Source: Phocaeicola oris
GTDB lineage: Bacteria > Bacteroidota > Bacteroidia > Bacteroidales > Bacteroidaceae
NCBI RefSeq assembly: GCF_021295095.1
Contig: NZ_JAJLQX010000001.1
Coordinates: forward strand, 62,001 to 126,000
Direction of reading: 5' to 3'
DNA length: 64,000 bases
Shown: positions 12,405 through 54,042 of the stretch, piece by piece
Layout of the letters: each line of letters starts with the position of its first letter
Numbering within the stretch: position 1 is the stretch's first letter
The notes under the pieces: generated by a model
Database searches by the model: none
What the model saw: only the letters and a program-made list of their open reading frames with translations
Told to the model about the DNA's origin: nothing
Translations under genes and position numbers: made by a program

Positions 12405-12690
12405 AGTGCTTCTACGAAAAAAAAGTACTATCGGGAACTCCGAAATCTCTTCTACGAGTGAAAAAGTATTGTCGGAACTTCTCGACAATGCTTCCACGAA
12501 AGAAAAAGCGTTGGCGAGCCGCTCGCTAACACTTTTACGAGAGAAAATGAGCCGTCGAGCAGCTCGACAGCACTTTTTTGAAGAAAGATGCACCGGCGAG
12601 CCGCTCGATAATGCTTTTACTGAAGAAAAAGTACTATCGGAACTTCCCGACAGTGCTTCTACGGGAGAAAAAGCATCAAATCTTTATAAT
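12405..12690. repeat. tandem array of about 41-bp imperfect hairpin units
   Basis: Six or seven diverged units start near 12422, 12461, 12504, 12545, 12585, 12627 and 12669. Each has the plan AAAAGTAYTRTCGG, a short loop, CCGACARTGCTTCTACG, then a purine-rich joint GARGA. Most units are inverted repeats internally, with compensating differences (for example AGCGTTGGCGAG with CTCGCTAACACT). Open frames on both strands through the array are a by-product of the repeat. It lies between the fimbrillin-like gene stop and a strong terminator, so it would be in that operon's 3' untranslated region. Confidence 0.8.
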
Positions 12691-12772: not shown

Positions 12773-14050
12773 TCAGTCAATCATATCGAATCCGCAATAC
12801 GGAACTAAAACCTTTGGAATCTTGATTCCTTCCGGTGTTTGATTGTCTTCCAAAATGGCGGCTACTATTCGTGGCAATGCCAGTGCCGAGCCATTCAGTG
12901 TATGACAAAGTTCTATCTTCTTATTATCAGCACGACGGTAGCGGCAGTGCAGGCGATTGGCCTGATAGGTGTCAAAATTGGAAACAGAGCTGACTTCCAA
13001 CCAGCGTTGCTGAGCCTCTGAATAAACCTCGAAATCATAGCAGATAGAGGATGTGAAGCTCATATCACCACCGCAAAGGCGAAGAATATGGTAGGGAAGT
13101 TCCAGCTTCTGCAACAATCCTTCTACATGGTCGAGCATTTCTTGGTGCGACTGACGGCTGTGTTCCGGTTTGTCAATACGGACAAGCTCTACTTTCGAGA
13201 ACTCATGCAGACGGTTCAGTCCGCGGACATCTTTACCGTATGAGCCGGCTTCACGACGGAAACACTCGGTGTACGCGCAATTTTTAACAGGGAGGTCTTT
13301 CTCATCCAGAATCTCATCCCGATAGATATTGGTAACAGGAACTTCGGCTGTAGGTATCAGATAGTAATCGTCCACCTCACAATGGTACATCTGACCTTCT
13401 TTGTCGGGCAACTGACCTGTTCCGTAACCGGACGCGGCATTCACTACCGTAGGAGGCTGAATCTCTGTATATCCGGACTTGCGGGCTTCATCTAAGAAGA
13501 AATTGATGAGAGCACGCTGCAAACGTGCGCCTTTACCTATATATACAGGGAATCCGGCTCCGGAAATCTTTACCCCTAAATCAAAATCAATAATGTTATA
13601 TTTCTTGGCAAGTTCCCAGTGTGGCAGCGGGTTTTCAGGGAGAACAGTACGTTTTCCACCTTCTTTAACCACAACGTTGTCGTTGGCGTCTGCGCCTTCC
13701 GGAACTTCAGGGTAAGGAACATTAGGAATATTGTAAAGCAGTTGGGTCATATCTTCCTGTGCCTTTTCCATTTCATCCTGCAAAGCTTTGTTGCCATCTT
13801 TCATTTGAGTAACGCGAGCTTTGGCAGCTTCAGCTTCCTCTTTCTTTCCCTCTTTCATCAGTTGACCAATGGAACGGGATATGCTGTTGACTTCAGCTAA
13901 GTTTGTATCTAATTGGTTTTGAGCAGCCTTACGTTTGTTATTGATAGCTATAACTTCTTCTATAGCTTTCCTTGCATCTTTGAAATGCTTCTTTTCGAGT
14001 CCGCGGATAACACCTTCCGTATCATCAGTAATTTGTTTGATAGTAAGCAT
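12773..14050 (-). CDS. serS: seryl-tRNA synthetase
   Basis: A 425-residue class II synthetase charging tRNA-Ser. The N-terminal coiled-coil tRNA-binding arm spans about residues 1-115. The catalytic core follows, with motif 2 CFRREAGSYGKDVRGLNRLHEFSKVE and C-terminal motif 3 including LNGSALALPRIVAAILE. The start is placed at ATG 14050 (MLTIKQI), the family start. A longer frame reaches 14146, but a TAnnTTTG promoter element lies inside that extension at 14117-14124, so the extension is not translated. Confidence 0.95.
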   Translation of the reverse strand: MLTIKQITDDTEGVIRGLEKKHFKDARKAIEEVIAINNKRKAAQNQLDTNLAEVNSISRSIGQLMKEGKKEEAEAAKARVTQMKDGNKALQDEMEKAQEDMTQLLYNIPNVPYPEVPEGADANDNVVVKEGGKRTVLPENPLPHWELAKKYNIIDFDLGVKISGAGFPVYIGKGARLQRALINFFLDEARKSGYTEIQPPTVVNAASGYGTGQLPDKEGQMYHCEVDDYYLIPTAEVPVTNIYRDEILDEKDLPVKNCAYTECFRREAGSYGKDVRGLNRLHEFSKVELVRIDKPEHSRQSHQEMLDHVEGLLQKLELPYHILRLCGGDMSFTSSICYDFEVYSEAQQRWLEVSSVSNFDTYQANRLHCRYRRADNKKIELCHTLNGSALALPRIVAAILEDNQTPEGIKIPKVLVPYCGFDMID

Positions 14051-14116
14051 ATTATCTAATATTTTGATATTTTTCTTTAAAGCGGCTACAAAGATACTAT
14101 ATGCTGTTCGAAATCG

Positions 14117-14124
14117 CAAATTTA
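14117..14124 (-). promoter_or_regulatory. -7 promoter element for serS
   Basis: The minus strand reads TAAATTTG (TAnnTTTG), 67 bases upstream of the serS ATG. It fixes the start choice because it lies within the longer open frame. Confidence 0.6.
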
Positions 14125-14231
14125 TTTTATTATTACTTTCGTCCAAATAAAACCCTTTTAACAGTTGTTGCTTGTTCGTTAGCTAAGGGCGCGGCATCTC
14201 GTTCCGAAGTGGTCTGTTTGAATGCCTAAGG

Positions 14232-14397
14232 TGATATGTACGAACTTCTGTATTCATCAGAAGAACTTGTCAAAGTCATCCGCATGAGTTTGCCAAGTCA
14301 TGCGGATGAGTCGGGCGATTCATGCGGATGAGTTGATCAGTTCATGCGGATGAGTTGGATGATTCATACGCATCACTTTTTCCGATCTCTTTATGGG
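14232..14397 (+). repeat. 22-bp phased near-palindrome array, locus 1
   Basis: Cores begin at 14276 (TCATCCGCATGA), 14298, 14320 and 14342 (TCATGCGGATGA each) and 14364 (TCATACGCATCA), exactly 22 bp apart. Weaker in-phase units are at 14254 (TCATCAGAAG), 14232 and 14386. TCATGCGGATGA and TCATCCGCATGA are reverse complements of each other. The array fills the spacer between the serS promoter and the terminator of the aldo/keto reductase gene. A 22-bp period cannot encode protein repeats. Confidence 0.85.
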
Positions 14398-14463
14398 GGA
14401 TTGAATAAGCCTGACGGATAAATAAATCTGCTTGTGTCACTCAACTATATAGTGGTATAAAGA

Positions 14464-14524: not shown

Positions 14525-15907
14525 TTACAGCGTATTTTGCTTCAAATTTTCTATGAACTTATCAATGCGCTGCATCTCCTGCGGAATGCGTATGTTCTGA
14601 GGACAGTGCGGAGTACACTGATTACAACTTGTGCAATGTGCTGCCTGACGAAGTTTTGGCACACTCCGGTCGTAGCCGATGAGGAATGCTCTGCGTGCTT
14701 CGGCATAATTCGGGTCTTCCTGACTCTTTGGAACATTCCCCTCGTTGACACATTTATTATAATGGACAAAGATAGCCGGGATGTCTAATCCGTAAGGACA
14801 TGGCATGCAGTATTTACAGTCGTTACAAGGAATGGTAGGATACTGTGACATCAGGTCGGCCGTGTCGTAGAGGAATTGCTTCTCTTCGTCGGTAAGTTCT
14901 TTCAATGGGGAATAGGTGCGAATATTATCCTGCAAATGTTCCATGTACACCATTCCGCTGAGGACAGTCATAATTTTGGGGAATGAACCTGCATAACGGA
15001 ACGACCAAGAGGCTACGCTGCTTCCCGGGTCGCGTTGTTTGAGCCGGCTGACAATATGTTGTGGGACATTCGACAAACGTCCTCCTAATAGCGGTTCCAT
15101 AATAACCACCGGAATGCCACGTTTCTCTAATTCTCCGTACAAATATTCGGCAGGAGTATTGAATCCGCTGGCATGTTTCCAGTCGACAAAGTTCATTTGT
15201 ATCTGTACGAAATCCCATTTCACCTCTTTGTTGTCATGCATTTTCAGAGCATAATCGAAGCAGGCGATATCACCATGGAAAGAGAATCCTAAATGACGAA
15301 TTTTTCCTCTCTCTTGTTCCTTCTTTAAGAATTCAATCATTCCGTTTTCAATGAAACGTTTGTTGAACTGCTCCATTCCGCCACCGCCAATCATGTGTAG
15401 CAGATAAAAATCGATAACATCAACCTGCAGGTTTTTAAACGAGTTGTTATAAAGCATCATGGCCACCTCACGACTCGGATCGGAAAAATTTGACAACTTG
15501 GTTGCCACATAGAATTTGTCACGGGGATGACGCTTTAGCGCATTACCGGTCGCTCTCTCGGCGTATCCCTGACTGTATACGGGAGCCACGTCATAATAGT
15601 TCACTCCGTGCTCCATGGCATAGTCGATAAGTTTATTGACTGCATCCTGATTCAAAGGGTTTTTTCCCTCGTGCGGTACGTTCTCTATATCGGCAAAGCG
15701 CATACACCCATAGCCTAAGATAGAAATCTTTTCATCTACAAAGCCCGGGAATGTGCGATAAGTCATTTTATCAGTAGGAACAGGTCCTTGATTAGTTGGG
15801 GCCGGACCTGCGTCTATGGTTCTCTTAGGCGAGCAAGCTGCCAGACCGGTGGTGGCTGTGGCACCGCCTACTATTTTCATAAAATCACGACGATTCATAT
15901 CTTTCAT
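14525..15907 (-). CDS. exported aldo/keto reductase with C-terminal 2x[4Fe-4S] ferredoxin domain
   Basis: 460 residues. The N-terminus MKDMNRRDFMKIVGG has a twin-arginine-type RRDFMK motif and an LAAC lipobox, suggesting folded export and lipid attachment. The aldo/keto reductase barrel (about 55-330) keeps NYYDVAPVYSQG (Asp, Tyr), VATKLS (Lys) and YLLHMIG (His). The C-terminus has CNDCKYCMPCPYG and CTSCNQCTPHCPQ, ligands for two [4Fe-4S] clusters. ATG 15907 is preferred to the upstream in-frame ATG because AGGAGG lies 7 bases before it. It is the second gene after a membrane polyferredoxin (15-base spacer). The substrate is unknown. Confidence 0.85.
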   Translation of the reverse strand: MKDMNRRDFMKIVGGATATTGLAACSPKRTIDAGPAPTNQGPVPTDKMTYRTFPGFVDEKISILGYGCMRFADIENVPHEGKNPLNQDAVNKLIDYAMEHGVNYYDVAPVYSQGYAERATGNALKRHPRDKFYVATKLSNFSDPSREVAMMLYNNSFKNLQVDVIDFYLLHMIGGGGMEQFNKRFIENGMIEFLKKEQERGKIRHLGFSFHGDIACFDYALKMHDNKEVKWDFVQIQMNFVDWKHASGFNTPAEYLYGELEKRGIPVVIMEPLLGGRLSNVPQHIVSRLKQRDPGSSVASWSFRYAGSFPKIMTVLSGMVYMEHLQDNIRTYSPLKELTDEEKQFLYDTADLMSQYPTIPCNDCKYCMPCPYGLDIPAIFVHYNKCVNEGNVPKSQEDPNYAEARRAFLIGYDRSVPKLRQAAHCTSCNQCTPHCPQNIRIPQEMQRIDKFIENLKQNTL

Positions 15908-15922
15908 AATCATTCCTCCTTA

Positions 15923-24892: not shown

Positions 24893-25057
24893 TCATCAGA
24901 AGTTTATGCAAAGTGATGCGTATAATCTCATAAATTGATGCGTATGAGTTGATCGATTCATGCGTATCACTTTCCTCGTTCATGCGTATGAGTTGACCAA
25001 ATGATACGCATGAAATACCCAACTTATACGTATGAACGACAGGGTTGATAATAACAG
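24893..25057 (+). repeat. 22-bp phased near-palindrome array, locus 2
   Basis: Cores begin at 24914 (TGATGCGTATAA), 24936 (TGATGCGTATGA), 24958 (TCATGCGTATCA), 24980 (TCATGCGTATGA), 25002 (TGATACGCATGA) and 25024 (TTATACGTATGA), each 22 bp after the last. The marker unit TCATCAGAAG is at 24893 and a weak in-phase unit at 25046. It fills the spacer between the metallophosphoesterase start and the DUF1573 terminator; no gene is present in the 355-base gap. Confidence 0.85.
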
Positions 25058-29550: not shown

Positions 29551-29628
29551 TCATAAAGAAAATACTCAAAGGCGATGTGTATGAATCGATTGACTCGTAC
29601 GCATCACCTTTTTACTATCTATTTATGG
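29551..29628 (+). repeat. 22-bp phased near-palindrome array, locus 3 (short)
   Basis: Units at 29551 (TCATAAAGAA, the marker type), 29573 (CGATGTGTATGA), 29595 (TCGTACGCATCA) and a weak unit at 29617, each 22 bp apart. A CACCTTTTT right end follows, as at other loci. It lies in the 202-base convergent spacer between the DUF4301 and metallophosphoesterase genes. Shorter and more diverged than the other arrays. Confidence 0.65.
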
Positions 29629-35617: not shown

Positions 35618-35805
35618 CGATACGAGTCTCTTGTGAAAAGGATCAATAATAAGAGCTCAACTCATACGTATGAGTTGAGCAACTGATGCGGATGAGTTGT
35701 CAAAGTCATCCGCATGAACTTGCCAACTCATCCGCATAAAACAGTCAAGAGATACTGATCACTTTTTCAATTTATACTCATCACTTAAAATACAGATATT
35801 TATTG
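35618..35805 (+). repeat. 22-bp phased near-palindrome array, locus 4
   Basis: Strong cores at 35662 (TCATACGTATGA, a perfect palindrome), 35684 (TGATGCGGATGA), 35706 (TCATCCGCATGA) and 35728 (TCATCCGCATAA). Weaker in-phase units at 35618, 35640, 35750 (AGATACTGATCA), 35772 (TTATACTCATCA) and 35794, all exactly 22 bp apart. Immediately follows the aspS terminator and runs to the 3' end of the convergent aguB gene. Confidence 0.85.
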
Positions 35806-42484: not shown

Positions 42485-42604
42485 TCATATTCATAAACTC
42501 GCAAATCATAAGAAAATATAGGTGTATCACGTGCGTGGTACAGATGGCTCACGTGCGTGATACACATGCCTCACATGCGTGATACACTTGATTCACGTAC
42601 GTGG
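42485..42604 (+). repeat. 22-bp phased array, locus 5, variant core TCACGTGCGTGA
   Basis: Cores begin at 42527 (TCACGTGCGTGG), 42549 (TCACGTGCGTGA), 42571 (TCACATGCGTGA) and 42593 (TCACGTACGTGG), exactly 22 bp apart. Preceded by TCATAAGAAA at 42506 and TCATATTCATAA at 42485, which match the marker units at other loci in the same relative place. Same layout as the TCATRCGNATGA arrays but with a different core. It lies in the 579-base gap between tamB and the radical SAM gene; no gene was seen in the gap. Confidence 0.85.
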
Positions 42605-42634
42605 TACACTTAAATTATAAGCCTAAACGGAAAT

Positions 42635-42885: not shown

Positions 42886-43914
42886 TTAATCTATTTTTGT
42901 TTCTTTTACTTTCATTATGTATTTAAACATAACATTACTATAAACTTTCTTATATTCCTTTCGAAGTATATTAATATATCTTGGTGTATTTAGAACTTTA
43001 TTACAAACTTGGCATATATGCATTGATTTATATATTTTATAATCTTCAGATGTAAATTGAGAAATGTAATTAAGAATTTCATATGGTCCTTCTGTAGCTA
43101 TCCATATTTTTAAAAAATCTTTAAATTGATTCAAGTAAAGTTCTTTAATTGAATGTGTTTTCAAATTTCCTAAATCTAGGTATTTAGAATATTTAGAAAT
43201 AAGACCACAACAGGCGAGCATTCTATGATCTGGATCAATTGCTATTGTACTAAATAAATTAGAGTAACCACCATAGCATGGCATAACAAATCTACTTATA
43301 CCAGGAATTTCTGTATCTTTATTATTCTTGTTTTTAAATTGCACCCAAATCCCATTCAAGATTCTAAGTTTTCCGATTTTTATATAAGGTATCAACATGC
43401 TATGCTCTTTTAAGAATTTTGAATTGAAATTCCTGTCATCACTAGATTCAACATTTACAACTACATTTATATTTTGCTCTACTGCTGCTATTATCCCGTT
43501 TAAGATATTGTTAATAGGTACAAACTTCTGATGATCATCACCAGTGCTATAATTAATTTCGGACAGACCAACTTTTTTTAGTTGATTAACAATCTGAAAT
43601 GCTTTTTTGTAAGAAGATGCCCAAAATGCATTGGTTACGATTCGTACCTTAAGCCCTAATCTTGAAGCAAAGTTAACTATTTCTTCTAACTCATTCATTA
43701 AAAGGAAAGATTCGCCACCTGATAAAATTAAAAGTTTTACACTATAAAAAGAGCAAATAGTTTCTTTTATATAAAATTTTATTTCTGATATTGTTAGTTT
43801 CTCATTTCTGTTTGGACTGCATTGAAAGCAACAATTTTCACAACTACTAGTACATTTGTACGTTGTTAATATGCACAAAGAAACAGGGGGTATATATAGG
43901 ATTTCATTATTCAT
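42886..43914 (-). CDS. radical SAM enzyme with SPASM-like C-terminus
   Basis: 342 residues from ATG 43914; the frame also opens at an upstream TTG. C21, C25 and C28 form the CX3CX2C [4Fe-4S] motif of radical SAM enzymes, and ILSGGE at 64-68 binds SAM. The C-terminal half has MPCYGG (C213), MLACCGL (C235, C236) followed by LGNLKTHSIKELY, and HICQVC (C301, C304). This resembles a reduced SPASM/twitch domain holding one auxiliary cluster. Such enzymes commonly modify ribosomal peptides. It is strongly AT rich, 16 bases after an unusual lipoprotein gene with which it forms an operon. The substrate is not known. Confidence 0.85.
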   Translation of the reverse strand: MNNEILYIPPVSLCILTTYKCTSSCENCCFQCSPNRNEKLTISEIKFYIKETICSFYSVKLLILSGGESFLLMNELEEIVNFASRLGLKVRIVTNAFWASSYKKAFQIVNQLKKVGLSEINYSTGDDHQKFVPINNILNGIIAAVEQNINVVVNVESSDDRNFNSKFLKEHSMLIPYIKIGKLRILNGIWVQFKNKNNKDTEIPGISRFVMPCYGGYSNLFSTIAIDPDHRMLACCGLISKYSKYLDLGNLKTHSIKELYLNQFKDFLKIWIATEGPYEILNYISQFTSEDYKIYKSMHICQVCNKVLNTPRYINILRKEYKKVYSNVMFKYIMKVKETKID

Positions 43915-43930
43915 AAACAAAGCAATATTA

Positions 43931-44755
43931 TCAATATCTATTAATTATATTTATCTTTATAAAGTTCTTTACTTGCTCTTTTGCTTCTGTTTCCATTGGA
44001 TAATTAAGACTCTCAATTTTTTTATAAATTTTGTCTACTTCATCATCAATAAACTTATTTACTGCAATATATGTTTTAGTAGAGCAAGATTTTAATTTTA
44101 AAATGCGAAGAGTTGAATTACTTCCCACATTTGACATTTCGTTAGTTACATCCATTGATGTACGAATATAAATAATAGTTCCTGCAGCAATAGCTAAGGC
44201 TAAAGCAGCAATGGCAAAAACAATTACAGGTATTGGAGCAATAAAGCCTGTATCAACTTCTTGACTTTTTGCTTTAATACCTATAACATTGTAAAGTTTA
44301 GTAATTTCACCGTTTGAAAGATCAATAAAGTCACTTCTCACAGAAGTTAAGAGTCCTTTGTTCTTTAATAAATTAATGGCCAATGAGTAGTCTTCTGCAT
44401 TTATGGCTGAATTAACATCATTATCACCTAAAGCAAGAATTAATTTAAGTAAACTATCATCTAAATTGATTGGTTCACAGAAACCATATTTTTCAATGTA
44501 TTTTTGAGGATTTGCAATAAATTCCCGTGCAGTTTGGGGATATTCTATTATATCATTGCCAAGTTTACTTAAAAAAAGGAGATAAGATATCTCTTGCTCA
44601 TCAAAAGGTAAATTGATTGCAGAAATACCTATATCCGGCAATTCTGCATTTTCTACAAGTTCTTCATCTATGAAATAACCACTACATGATGGTAATATTA
44701 CGCCAGTCGAGACCAATGCAGCCACTATTTTTGTTAAAACAGGATTCGATTTCAT
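43931..44755 (-). CDS. lipoprotein with Nif11/leader-like segment and internal membrane helix
   Basis: 274 residues. Signal peptide with lipobox ILPSC (C24). Residues 56-135 contain QTAREFIANPQKYIEKYGF and a helical segment after it, recalling the 'FLxxPExxLxxYG' helix of Nif11-like and related leader regions of modified-peptide precursors. Residues 171-197 are a hydrophobic Ala/Ile/Val-rich helix, followed by a polar C-terminus with C224. I do not recognise an established family. Because it adjoins a SPASM-like radical SAM gene, it may be that enzyme's protein substrate or a partner; this is inference. Confidence 0.7.
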   Translation of the reverse strand: MKSNPVLTKIVAALVSTGVILPSCSGYFIDEELVENAELPDIGISAINLPFDEQEISYLLFLSKLGNDIIEYPQTAREFIANPQKYIEKYGFCEPINLDDSLLKLILALGDNDVNSAINAEDYSLAINLLKNKGLLTSVRSDFIDLSNGEITKLYNVIGIKAKSQEVDTGFIAPIPVIVFAIAALALAIAAGTIIYIRTSMDVTNEMSNVGSNSTLRILKLKSCSTKTYIAVNKFIDDEVDKIYKKIESLNYPMETEAKEQVKNFIKINIINRY

Positions 44756-53751: not shown

Positions 53752-53787
53752 TATAACAGATGAATTCAACGAATTCATAATGAAAAC

Positions 53788-53832
53788 AAAACGTGTATCT
53801 TTCTAAAAAGAATGAAGGATACACGTTTTTTT
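53788..53832 (+). terminator. terminator of ftsY-rimO
   Basis: AAAACGTGTATC (53788-53799) pairs with GATACACGTTTT (53818-53829), ending in a T-run. Confidence 0.88.
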
Positions 53833-53859
53833 GGCACCCAATCATAACTGTTATTGTTC

Positions 53860-54024
53860 CGATATGTATGAACGCTCGAAGTGATACGGATGAGTTCACG
53901 TATTCATCAGAAGTTTTTGTCCGGTCATACGTATGAGTTGAGCGATTCATACGCATCAGTTGAGCGATTCATACGCATCAGTTGTGGAACTCATCCGCAT
54001 CACTTTTCCTCATTATTCTTATGA
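53860..54024 (+). repeat. 22-bp phased near-palindrome array, locus 6
   Basis: Cores at 53860 (CGATATGTATGA), 53882 (TGATACGGATGA), 53904 (TCATCAGAAG marker), 53925 (TCATACGTATGA, perfect palindrome), 53947 and 53969 (TCATACGCATCA), 53991 (TCATCCGCATCA), and a weak unit at 54013 (TTATTCTTATGA). Spacing is 22 bp throughout except one 21. Immediately follows the rimO terminator. Confidence 0.88.
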
Positions 54025-54042
54025 TAAATTTAATTAACACGT

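Follow-up and report, generated by a model that had tools for sequence, protein, structure and literature searches.

Between the genes for seryl-tRNA synthetase (serS) and an aldo/keto reductase lies an array of short, partly palindromic units, which we call bricks, in the 64-kb stretch of DNA analysed here as a whole and referred to as the window (Table 1). A sequence-only reading of the window had described five strong cores there at exact 22-bp spacing, and this description was confirmed: four (14276, 14298, 14320 and 14342) match the core of brick family A, TCATNCGNATGA, exactly, and the fifth, at 14364, carries one mismatch (TCATACGCATCA). The in-phase degenerate units lie at 14232 and 14254, and TATTCATCAGAAG at 14252-14264 is similar, by eye, to the leader end of the intact elements described below. 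No intact inverted end was found at this locus, where only part of a tail is kept, and it is because of this tail remnant that we read the array as an eroded element.

Table 1. Brick arrays, element remnants and flanking genes in the window
Feature	Coordinates	Strand	Composition or evidence
seryl-tRNA synthetase (serS), flanking gene	12773..14146	-	Pfam PF00587, PF02403
brick array A	14232..14397	+	2 degenerate units and 5 strong cores, exact 22-bp phase
element tail remnant	14364..14418	+	nhmmer, tail profile, E 8.9e-7, first 56 of 149 profile positions
aldo/keto reductase with ferredoxin-like domain, flanking gene	14525..15913	-	Pfam PF00248, PF13187
brick array A	24914..25045	+	6 units at exact 22 bp
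two degenerate units, likely a remnant	29573..29616	+	22 bp apart; attribution inferred
brick array A	35662..35793	.	4 strong and 2 degenerate units at 22 bp; between convergent genes
4-unit array	42527..42614	+	exact 22 bp; core TCAC-N4-GTGA or GTGG, TACA spacer
element leader, diverged	53759..53918	+	nhmmer, leader profile positions 3-163 of 166, E 3.3e-9
brick array A	53860..54012	+	2 units, one 43-bp step, 4 units at 22 bp (53925-53991)
tail start, diverged	53991..54038	+	nhmmer, E 0.0006

The same design had been proposed for five further loci of the window. The 22-bp phase does recur at all five; only two degenerate units are present at 29.6 kb, the core at 42.5 kb is a different one and the array at 53.9 kb is interrupted by a single 43-bp step. 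By eye, the 42.5-kb array resembles a second brick family, B (GTTTCAC-N4-GTGATACACTTG). The leader and tail profiles gave no match at E <= 0.01 to the arrays at 24914..25045 and 35662..35793, and neither of the two window arrays with remnants has both ends, that at 14.2 kb retaining part of the tail and that at 53.9 kb a diverged leader and the start of a tail; the four remaining loci are assigned by brick and phase only. Core matches with at most one mismatch number 22 in the window (mean 2.7 and largest value 7 in 100 dinucleotide shuffles), and the single sites outside arrays are three (8971, 56914 and 59680). Two simple explanations could be set aside. The arrays do not encode repeats, because 22 cannot be divided by three and those of period 22 in the genome (G000) lie outside long open frames, and no known RNA family was matched when the window was searched with Rfam at gathering thresholds.

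Two further observations were made in the window. A second type of tail, with short AGGTTC or AGGTGTCA repeats, was seen in the right flank at 53.9 kb and in L025 and L014 (near 4.9 kb); its repeats vary between copies and agree within a copy, and homology extends approximately 330 bp beyond the array. At 42886-44755 a radical SAM protein, whose best NCBIfam match is a YydG-type peptide epimerase far below cut-off, adjoins a small lipoprotein-like protein without a family match, and the two are possibly a peptide-modification pair.

Abundance and placement in the genome

Is the array at 14.2 kb one of a few, or one of many? Each strand of the 2.98-Mb genome has 363 copies of the exact core, against a single match for the same pattern read backwards, and the exact pair of cores 22 bp apart is found 162 times (control 0). 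When periods of 12-40 were scanned in 364 kb of the genome that had been picked without regard to hits (the window and 15 stretches), 22 arrays were found at period 22 and one elsewhere (12). The 23 family A arrays of at least three units in these 364 kb extrapolate to about 188 (approximately 190) genome-wide; exact cores extrapolated in the same way come to 384, close to the 363 counted. None of the 37 period-22 arrays found de novo in 449 kb falls within a stop-free frame of at least 120 codons, and in this sense all are intergenic; by a crude gene call some overlap small or 5'-extended ORFs. Of the sequence-only reading, a non-coding family with a closely kept 22-bp phase is upheld, and the family extends genome-wide.

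Placement gave no sign of being directed by the host. Among the 29 arrays that could be placed (four of the 33 sampled had no called neighbour), 12 lie between tandem, nine between convergent and eight between divergent genes, compared with 51, 21 and 32 of the intergenic gaps of at least 150 bp in the same stretches, and there is no clear preference. Neither is there a clear bias in orientation toward the neighbouring genes in the 12 tandem cases (six sense, four antisense, two undecided), and a Bacteroides-type promoter motif was not found in three intact copies.

Iterons of plasmid and phage origins are also direct repeats of about 22 bp in phase, and iterons or nucleoid-protein arrays had been the comparison first drawn. 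As a primary identity this was not supported. The locus has no replication-initiator neighbour, being flanked by serS and the aldo/keto reductase gene, and the motif, unlike iterons, is dispersed at an estimated 190 loci; the arrays are instead part of a MITE-like element with ends of the IS982 type.

A MITE-like element with ends of the IS982 type

Alignment of array flanks revealed leader and tail sequences common to many arrays, and intact copies share one architecture, in which 22-bp bricks stand between a leader and a tail, inverted ends (AACGTGARTTCGAYGAA) bound the whole and duplicated 5-bp targets lie outside them. The intact lengths are 406 bp (L188), 450 bp (L191), 427 bp (L020) and 428 bp (L015), with AACGTGARTTCGAYGAA inverted at both ends of all four and a single mismatch in one end of L191; short, bounded by terminal inverted repeats and without a transposase gene, these copies have the form of a MITE. 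Target duplications were found in five of the eight elements examined in which both ends are recognisable, and all five are perfect: AAATT (L188), ATTTT (L191), ATCTT (L020), AAGAT (L015) and AATTT in a chimeric copy, L183. The two-ended elements without a duplication, by eye, are L190, L019 and L018 at 11745. All five duplicated elements carry bricks of family B, accompanied by no more than a couple of A-type units, unlike the long A array at 14.2 kb.

How far can this architecture be extended to arrays lacking recognisable ends? Leader and/or tail profiles matched 13 of 33 sampled arrays, which came largely from stretches chosen by hits; four matched both and 20 neither, and the membership of these 20 rests on the brick, as they have no recognisable leader or tail. 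For intact copies the identification as a minisatellite MITE is well supported, and at two of the six window loci remnants support it. A full element comprises approximately 400-450 bp, running from inverted end through leader, brick array and tail to inverted end between 5-bp duplications. After insertion, leader and tail would decay faster than the bricks, and most present arrays, that at 14.2 kb included, would then be eroded copies. In our view these arrays very probably form the minisatellite core of a non-autonomous, MITE-like element carried by a Phocaeicola-type gut bacterium.

The ends point to the family of IS that may move the element. In L183:1194-1843, a copy with the same ends, the beginning of a transposase gene of the IS982 family (NF033520, E 8.9e-7, not reaching the family cut-off) is fused to family B bricks and a tail. 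When one mismatch is allowed, the end motif is found 41 times in the genome (control 0); at least 13 of these matches face a contig end that is no more than 350 bp away, as would be expected of a multicopy IS that collapsed in the assembly and broke it. Matches occur in 23 of 61 genus genomes (the control gave one, in G045), and single matches in several relatives fall in long frames and may be due to chance. In a relative, G047, the end adjoins an IS982 transposase (L196, E 3.5e-76), and IS982 ends of relatives are also hit by the leader profile, as at this L196 over positions 1-107 (E 3e-8). Within our genome the ends are common to MITE-like elements, IS982 fragments and copies at contig ends; we found no assembled IS982 that was both cognate and complete, and the one long frame for an IS982 transposase, at C13, carries four mismatches in its end. 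On account of the shared ends, the target duplications and the chimeric copy, we infer that the elements transpose, most probably with a resident multicopy IS of the IS982 family, bearing the same ends, acting on them in trans. Bricks as such are not linked to IS982 in general, as the copies inspected of the 21-bp arrays of two relatives, G011 and G041, lie in nested inverted repeats in which no IS982-type end was seen.

Could the arrays instead be REP elements mobilised by a RAYT (Y1) transposase? REP and REPIN sequences are likewise high-copy intergenic palindromes, yet they differ from our arrays, which have a 22-bp tandem phase and ends and target duplications of the IS982-linked kind, and no Y1 transposase (PF01797) was found in the genome (none of 10 candidates scored matched; the assembly is 95% complete and a gene could have been missed). 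We regard such an origin as extremely improbable.

Turnover, conservation and possible roles of the bricks

Families A (TCATNCGNATGA) and B (GTTTCAC-N4-GTGA) both have a 22-bp period. The pattern of the latter has 91 matches in the genome and six in three relatives, and bricks of B stand beside those of A in several elements; this second family within the same elements is new here. Also new is that near-identical copies differ by whole bricks. Four B elements, whose pairwise mismatches are 0-3 of 166 in the leader and 1-5 of about 172 in the tail, hold three, five, four and four bricks, and the chimera holds two. Bricks are thus shown to come and go as whole 22-bp units, probably by replication slippage.

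The phase is closely kept. Among 143 steps between family A units 136 are of 22 bp, three of 44 bp and four off phase. Between neighbouring A units there are four indels to 884 substitutions, compared with a gap rate per substitution of 0.10 across 55 pairs of tails and 0.08 across 21 pairs of leaders, so that indels per substitution are approximately 20 times rarer in bricks. A further new observation is that eight of the ten fixed core positions are more conserved than leader and tail: over 115 interior units these eight columns diverge from consensus by 3.7%, a figure that leaves out positions 2 and 11, and the flank columns by 12.4% (leader, seven rows) and 16.3% (tail, 11 rows). Columns 2 and 11, at 20.9% and 21.7%, are as variable as the flanks or more so, their changes being nearly always an exchange of C and G. 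This means either constraint or homogenisation for most of the brick core.

The bricks had been described as near-palindromes. Their half-sites are indeed conserved, but palindromy is only partial. Across 164 units of 31 arrays (the number taken into the unit and folding analyses), positions 2 and 11 form a Watson-Crick pair in 88 units (C/G 87, G/G 44, C/C 21, G/C 1, other 11) and positions 5 and 8 in 26, with G-T in 48. These counts do not support a hairpin kept by compensation at the level of the unit. When pairing was instead scored as a mirror across the array, position 2 lay slightly above the null (102, against 94.5 with sd 3.2) and position 5 showed no excess (37 against 37.8).

What, then, do the bricks do? 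Protein binding, hairpins in a transcript and neutral slippage are each possible. That half-sites TCAT and ATGA are largely conserved while centre and spacers vary, that the changes at positions 2 and 11 go uncompensated, as expected for half-sites and not for a hairpin, and that most core positions outlast leader and tail with the phase kept, would all agree with bricks that are cooperative sites for a dimeric DNA-binding protein of the host or of the element, with a phase of two helical turns registering the dimers and MITEs spreading the sites. Against this, duplication of bricks with homogenisation could yield the same conservation, and no single protein fits all of the arrays because two brick families occur in one genome and even one element and other species have yet other sequences. 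We hold a binding role to be possible but on the whole rather unlikely.

Folding bears on a second possibility, that the transcribed array is a long hairpin serving as insulator, terminator or RNase III substrate, with the palindrome kept at the level of RNA. On both strands most of the arrays fold below dinucleotide shuffles, the mean z over 31 arrays being -5.7 for the ATGAGTTG strand and -3.7 for its complement; the former is the more stable in 27 of the 31 (mean -48.0 vs -32.6 kcal/mol), G-T exceeds A-C mismatches on it (for example 48 vs 7 at positions 5 and 8) and, by eye, it runs from leader to tail where both are readable. The comparison of strands is not an independent one, because the strands were told apart by a motif with G-U pairs of its own and the arrays share a common ancestry. 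Moreover, unrelated arrays mostly fold alike on both strands (exceptions are L125, L102 and L119), compensation within units is lacking and, as noted, Rfam gave no window match at gathering thresholds, all of which leaves an RNA-level role doubtful and, in our opinion, unlikely.

The third possibility is that nothing binds, the bricks being neutral minisatellites whose length of 21-23 bp is set by slippage and template switching at quasi-palindromes. Changes of whole bricks between near-identical copies, arrays in several relatives that differ in sequence and fall in the same length class, and the absence of a clear preference in orientation or location are all consistent with neutrality. However, eight core columns that are three to four times less variable than leader and tail, and indels some 20 times rarer per substitution, exceed what simple decay would leave unless homogenisation is frequent. 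We would call a neutral origin a reasonable possibility that still falls short of being probable.

Arrays in relatives and phages, and comparison with known repeats

Among 60 genus genomes, the nearest relatives being 83-84% identical by ileS, the exact 22-bp pair of A occurs in our genome only (none of the 59 others), and we reject the idea of a single protein that reads one motif across the genus. Conservation of the phase in relatives, which the earlier reading had set as a test, gave a divided outcome, the exact pair being absent from those 59 genomes and several relatives carrying 21-23-bp arrays of other sequence. A 21-bp family (GGAGWTAACTCC...) is shared by G011, where its pattern matches 43 times at 17 loci, and G041, where it matches 39 times at 15 loci (control 0); two further genomes of 61 have four matches and one. 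More generally, scanning periods of 12-40 gave nine arrays at 21-22 and one elsewhere in other Phocaeicola (956 kb), eight at 21-23 and four elsewhere in 80 loci around one gene (969 kb), none in 14 genomes labelled as the same class (400 kb) and a single microsatellite, scored at both 14 and 21, in 20 genomes labelled as the same phylum (398 kb). The scan covered arrays outside long frames in approximately 3.4 Mb in all, and its groups are partly orthologous neighbourhoods (the 80 loci around one gene and many stretches around ileS) and not random samples. Low-complexity and short-period rows were dropped, as were arrays inside stop-free frames of at least 120 codons, the latter removing one period-22 array in Phocaeicola and four in the 80 loci; periods of 41-44 were also reported, mostly as doubles of period-21/22 arrays, in addition to separate 41-, 43- and 44-bp arrays.

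Unit sequences differ between most of the relatives' arrays. The occurrence in relatives of such 21-23-bp arrays of other sequence is new, and 10 of the 17 in other Phocaeicola and the 80 loci have a palindromic consensus (p < 0.05), compared with none of the six arrays at other periods outside our genome; the test employs a crude consensus and misses arrays that are palindromic by eye (L112, L122 and L124). In two MAG records titled Clostridium sp. and Ruminococcus flavefaciens (L072 and L105) the homologue encoded is about as closely related as the Bacteroidales homologues are, for which reason the titles are probably wrong. The exact 22-bp pair was also seen in two IMG/VR phage contigs, L161 (at 10746), which has integrase and primase genes, and L162 (at 4394), which has an anti-repressor gene; by eye both hold arrays of several units resembling family A.

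The sequence-only reading knew of no described family with such properties. This proved not to be so, as the architecture is that of BrickBuilt of Porphyromonas gingivalis, the closest known design. BrickBuilt consists of spacer-less tandem 23-nt bricks of about two helical turns, with dyad symmetry and predicted long stems, bordered by a leader, a tail and inverted ends that match a resident IS; its many copies are intergenic, many are incomplete and their brick number varies, and it was reported from P. gingivalis and P. gulae only (PMC4596501; Klein et al. 2015). Tandem bricks without spacers, leader and tail, IS-type ends, intergenic location and variable brick number are thus common to both, a likeness of architecture in which the dyad of BrickBuilt is taken from the words of that paper (PMC4596501). 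The differences from BrickBuilt are a brick of 22 bp and not 23 nt, an inverted end AACGTGARTTCGAYGAA and not the GAGACCTTTGCA of BrickBuilt and ISPg1 type, IS982 in place of IS5, two brick families per element and an estimated ten times more copies (about 188 vs 19) (PMC4596501).

Nearly the same inverted end as ours is found in MITE239 and MITE700 of P. gingivalis (MITE239: ACGTGAGTTCGA...), where it is matched to ISPg3, filed under IS5; unlike our elements, both are stated there to be without mini- or microsatellites (PMC4596501). MITE464/PgRS is, like ours, a MITE with an internal minisatellite, and differs in its 41-nt repeats and other ends (PMC4596501). Our genome has separate 41-bp arrays. 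One, at window positions 12405-12670 (12491-12581 in the scan), is built around GCGAGC-N-GCTCG or a close variant, arrays of the same type occur at L021 3898-4156 and, in the relative G026, at L117 1753-2091, and a further 41-bp array of other sequence lies at L113 11615-11769. Lengths of approximately 22 and 41 thus recur in both genera, given the 41-nt repeats of MITE464/PgRS (PMC4596501). The literature we searched, outside which many subscription papers lie, contained no report of the Phocaeicola arrays or of IS982-ended minisatellite MITEs.

A more far-reaching idea is that palindromic brick arrays of two turns (21-23 bp) are a recurrent module of Bacteroidales and their phages, in which fast-diverging dimeric proteins, each with its own half-sites, keep the phase, and MITEs and phages carry the arrays as cassettes for docking or insulation, so that sequence turns over and spacing stays. 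This we offer as a speculation that is quite improbable as it stands. What is new, in our reading of the arrays as the core of a MITE, is an architecture of the BrickBuilt type with the ends of another IS family, and several other Bacteroidales carry arrays of 21-23 bp, often palindromic and different again in sequence. If a full survey agrees, it would be the length of the brick and its dyad design, and not its sequence, that are the conserved property, and, if true, elements of this kind would account for a sizeable unannotated share of the intergenic DNA of some gut Bacteroidales.
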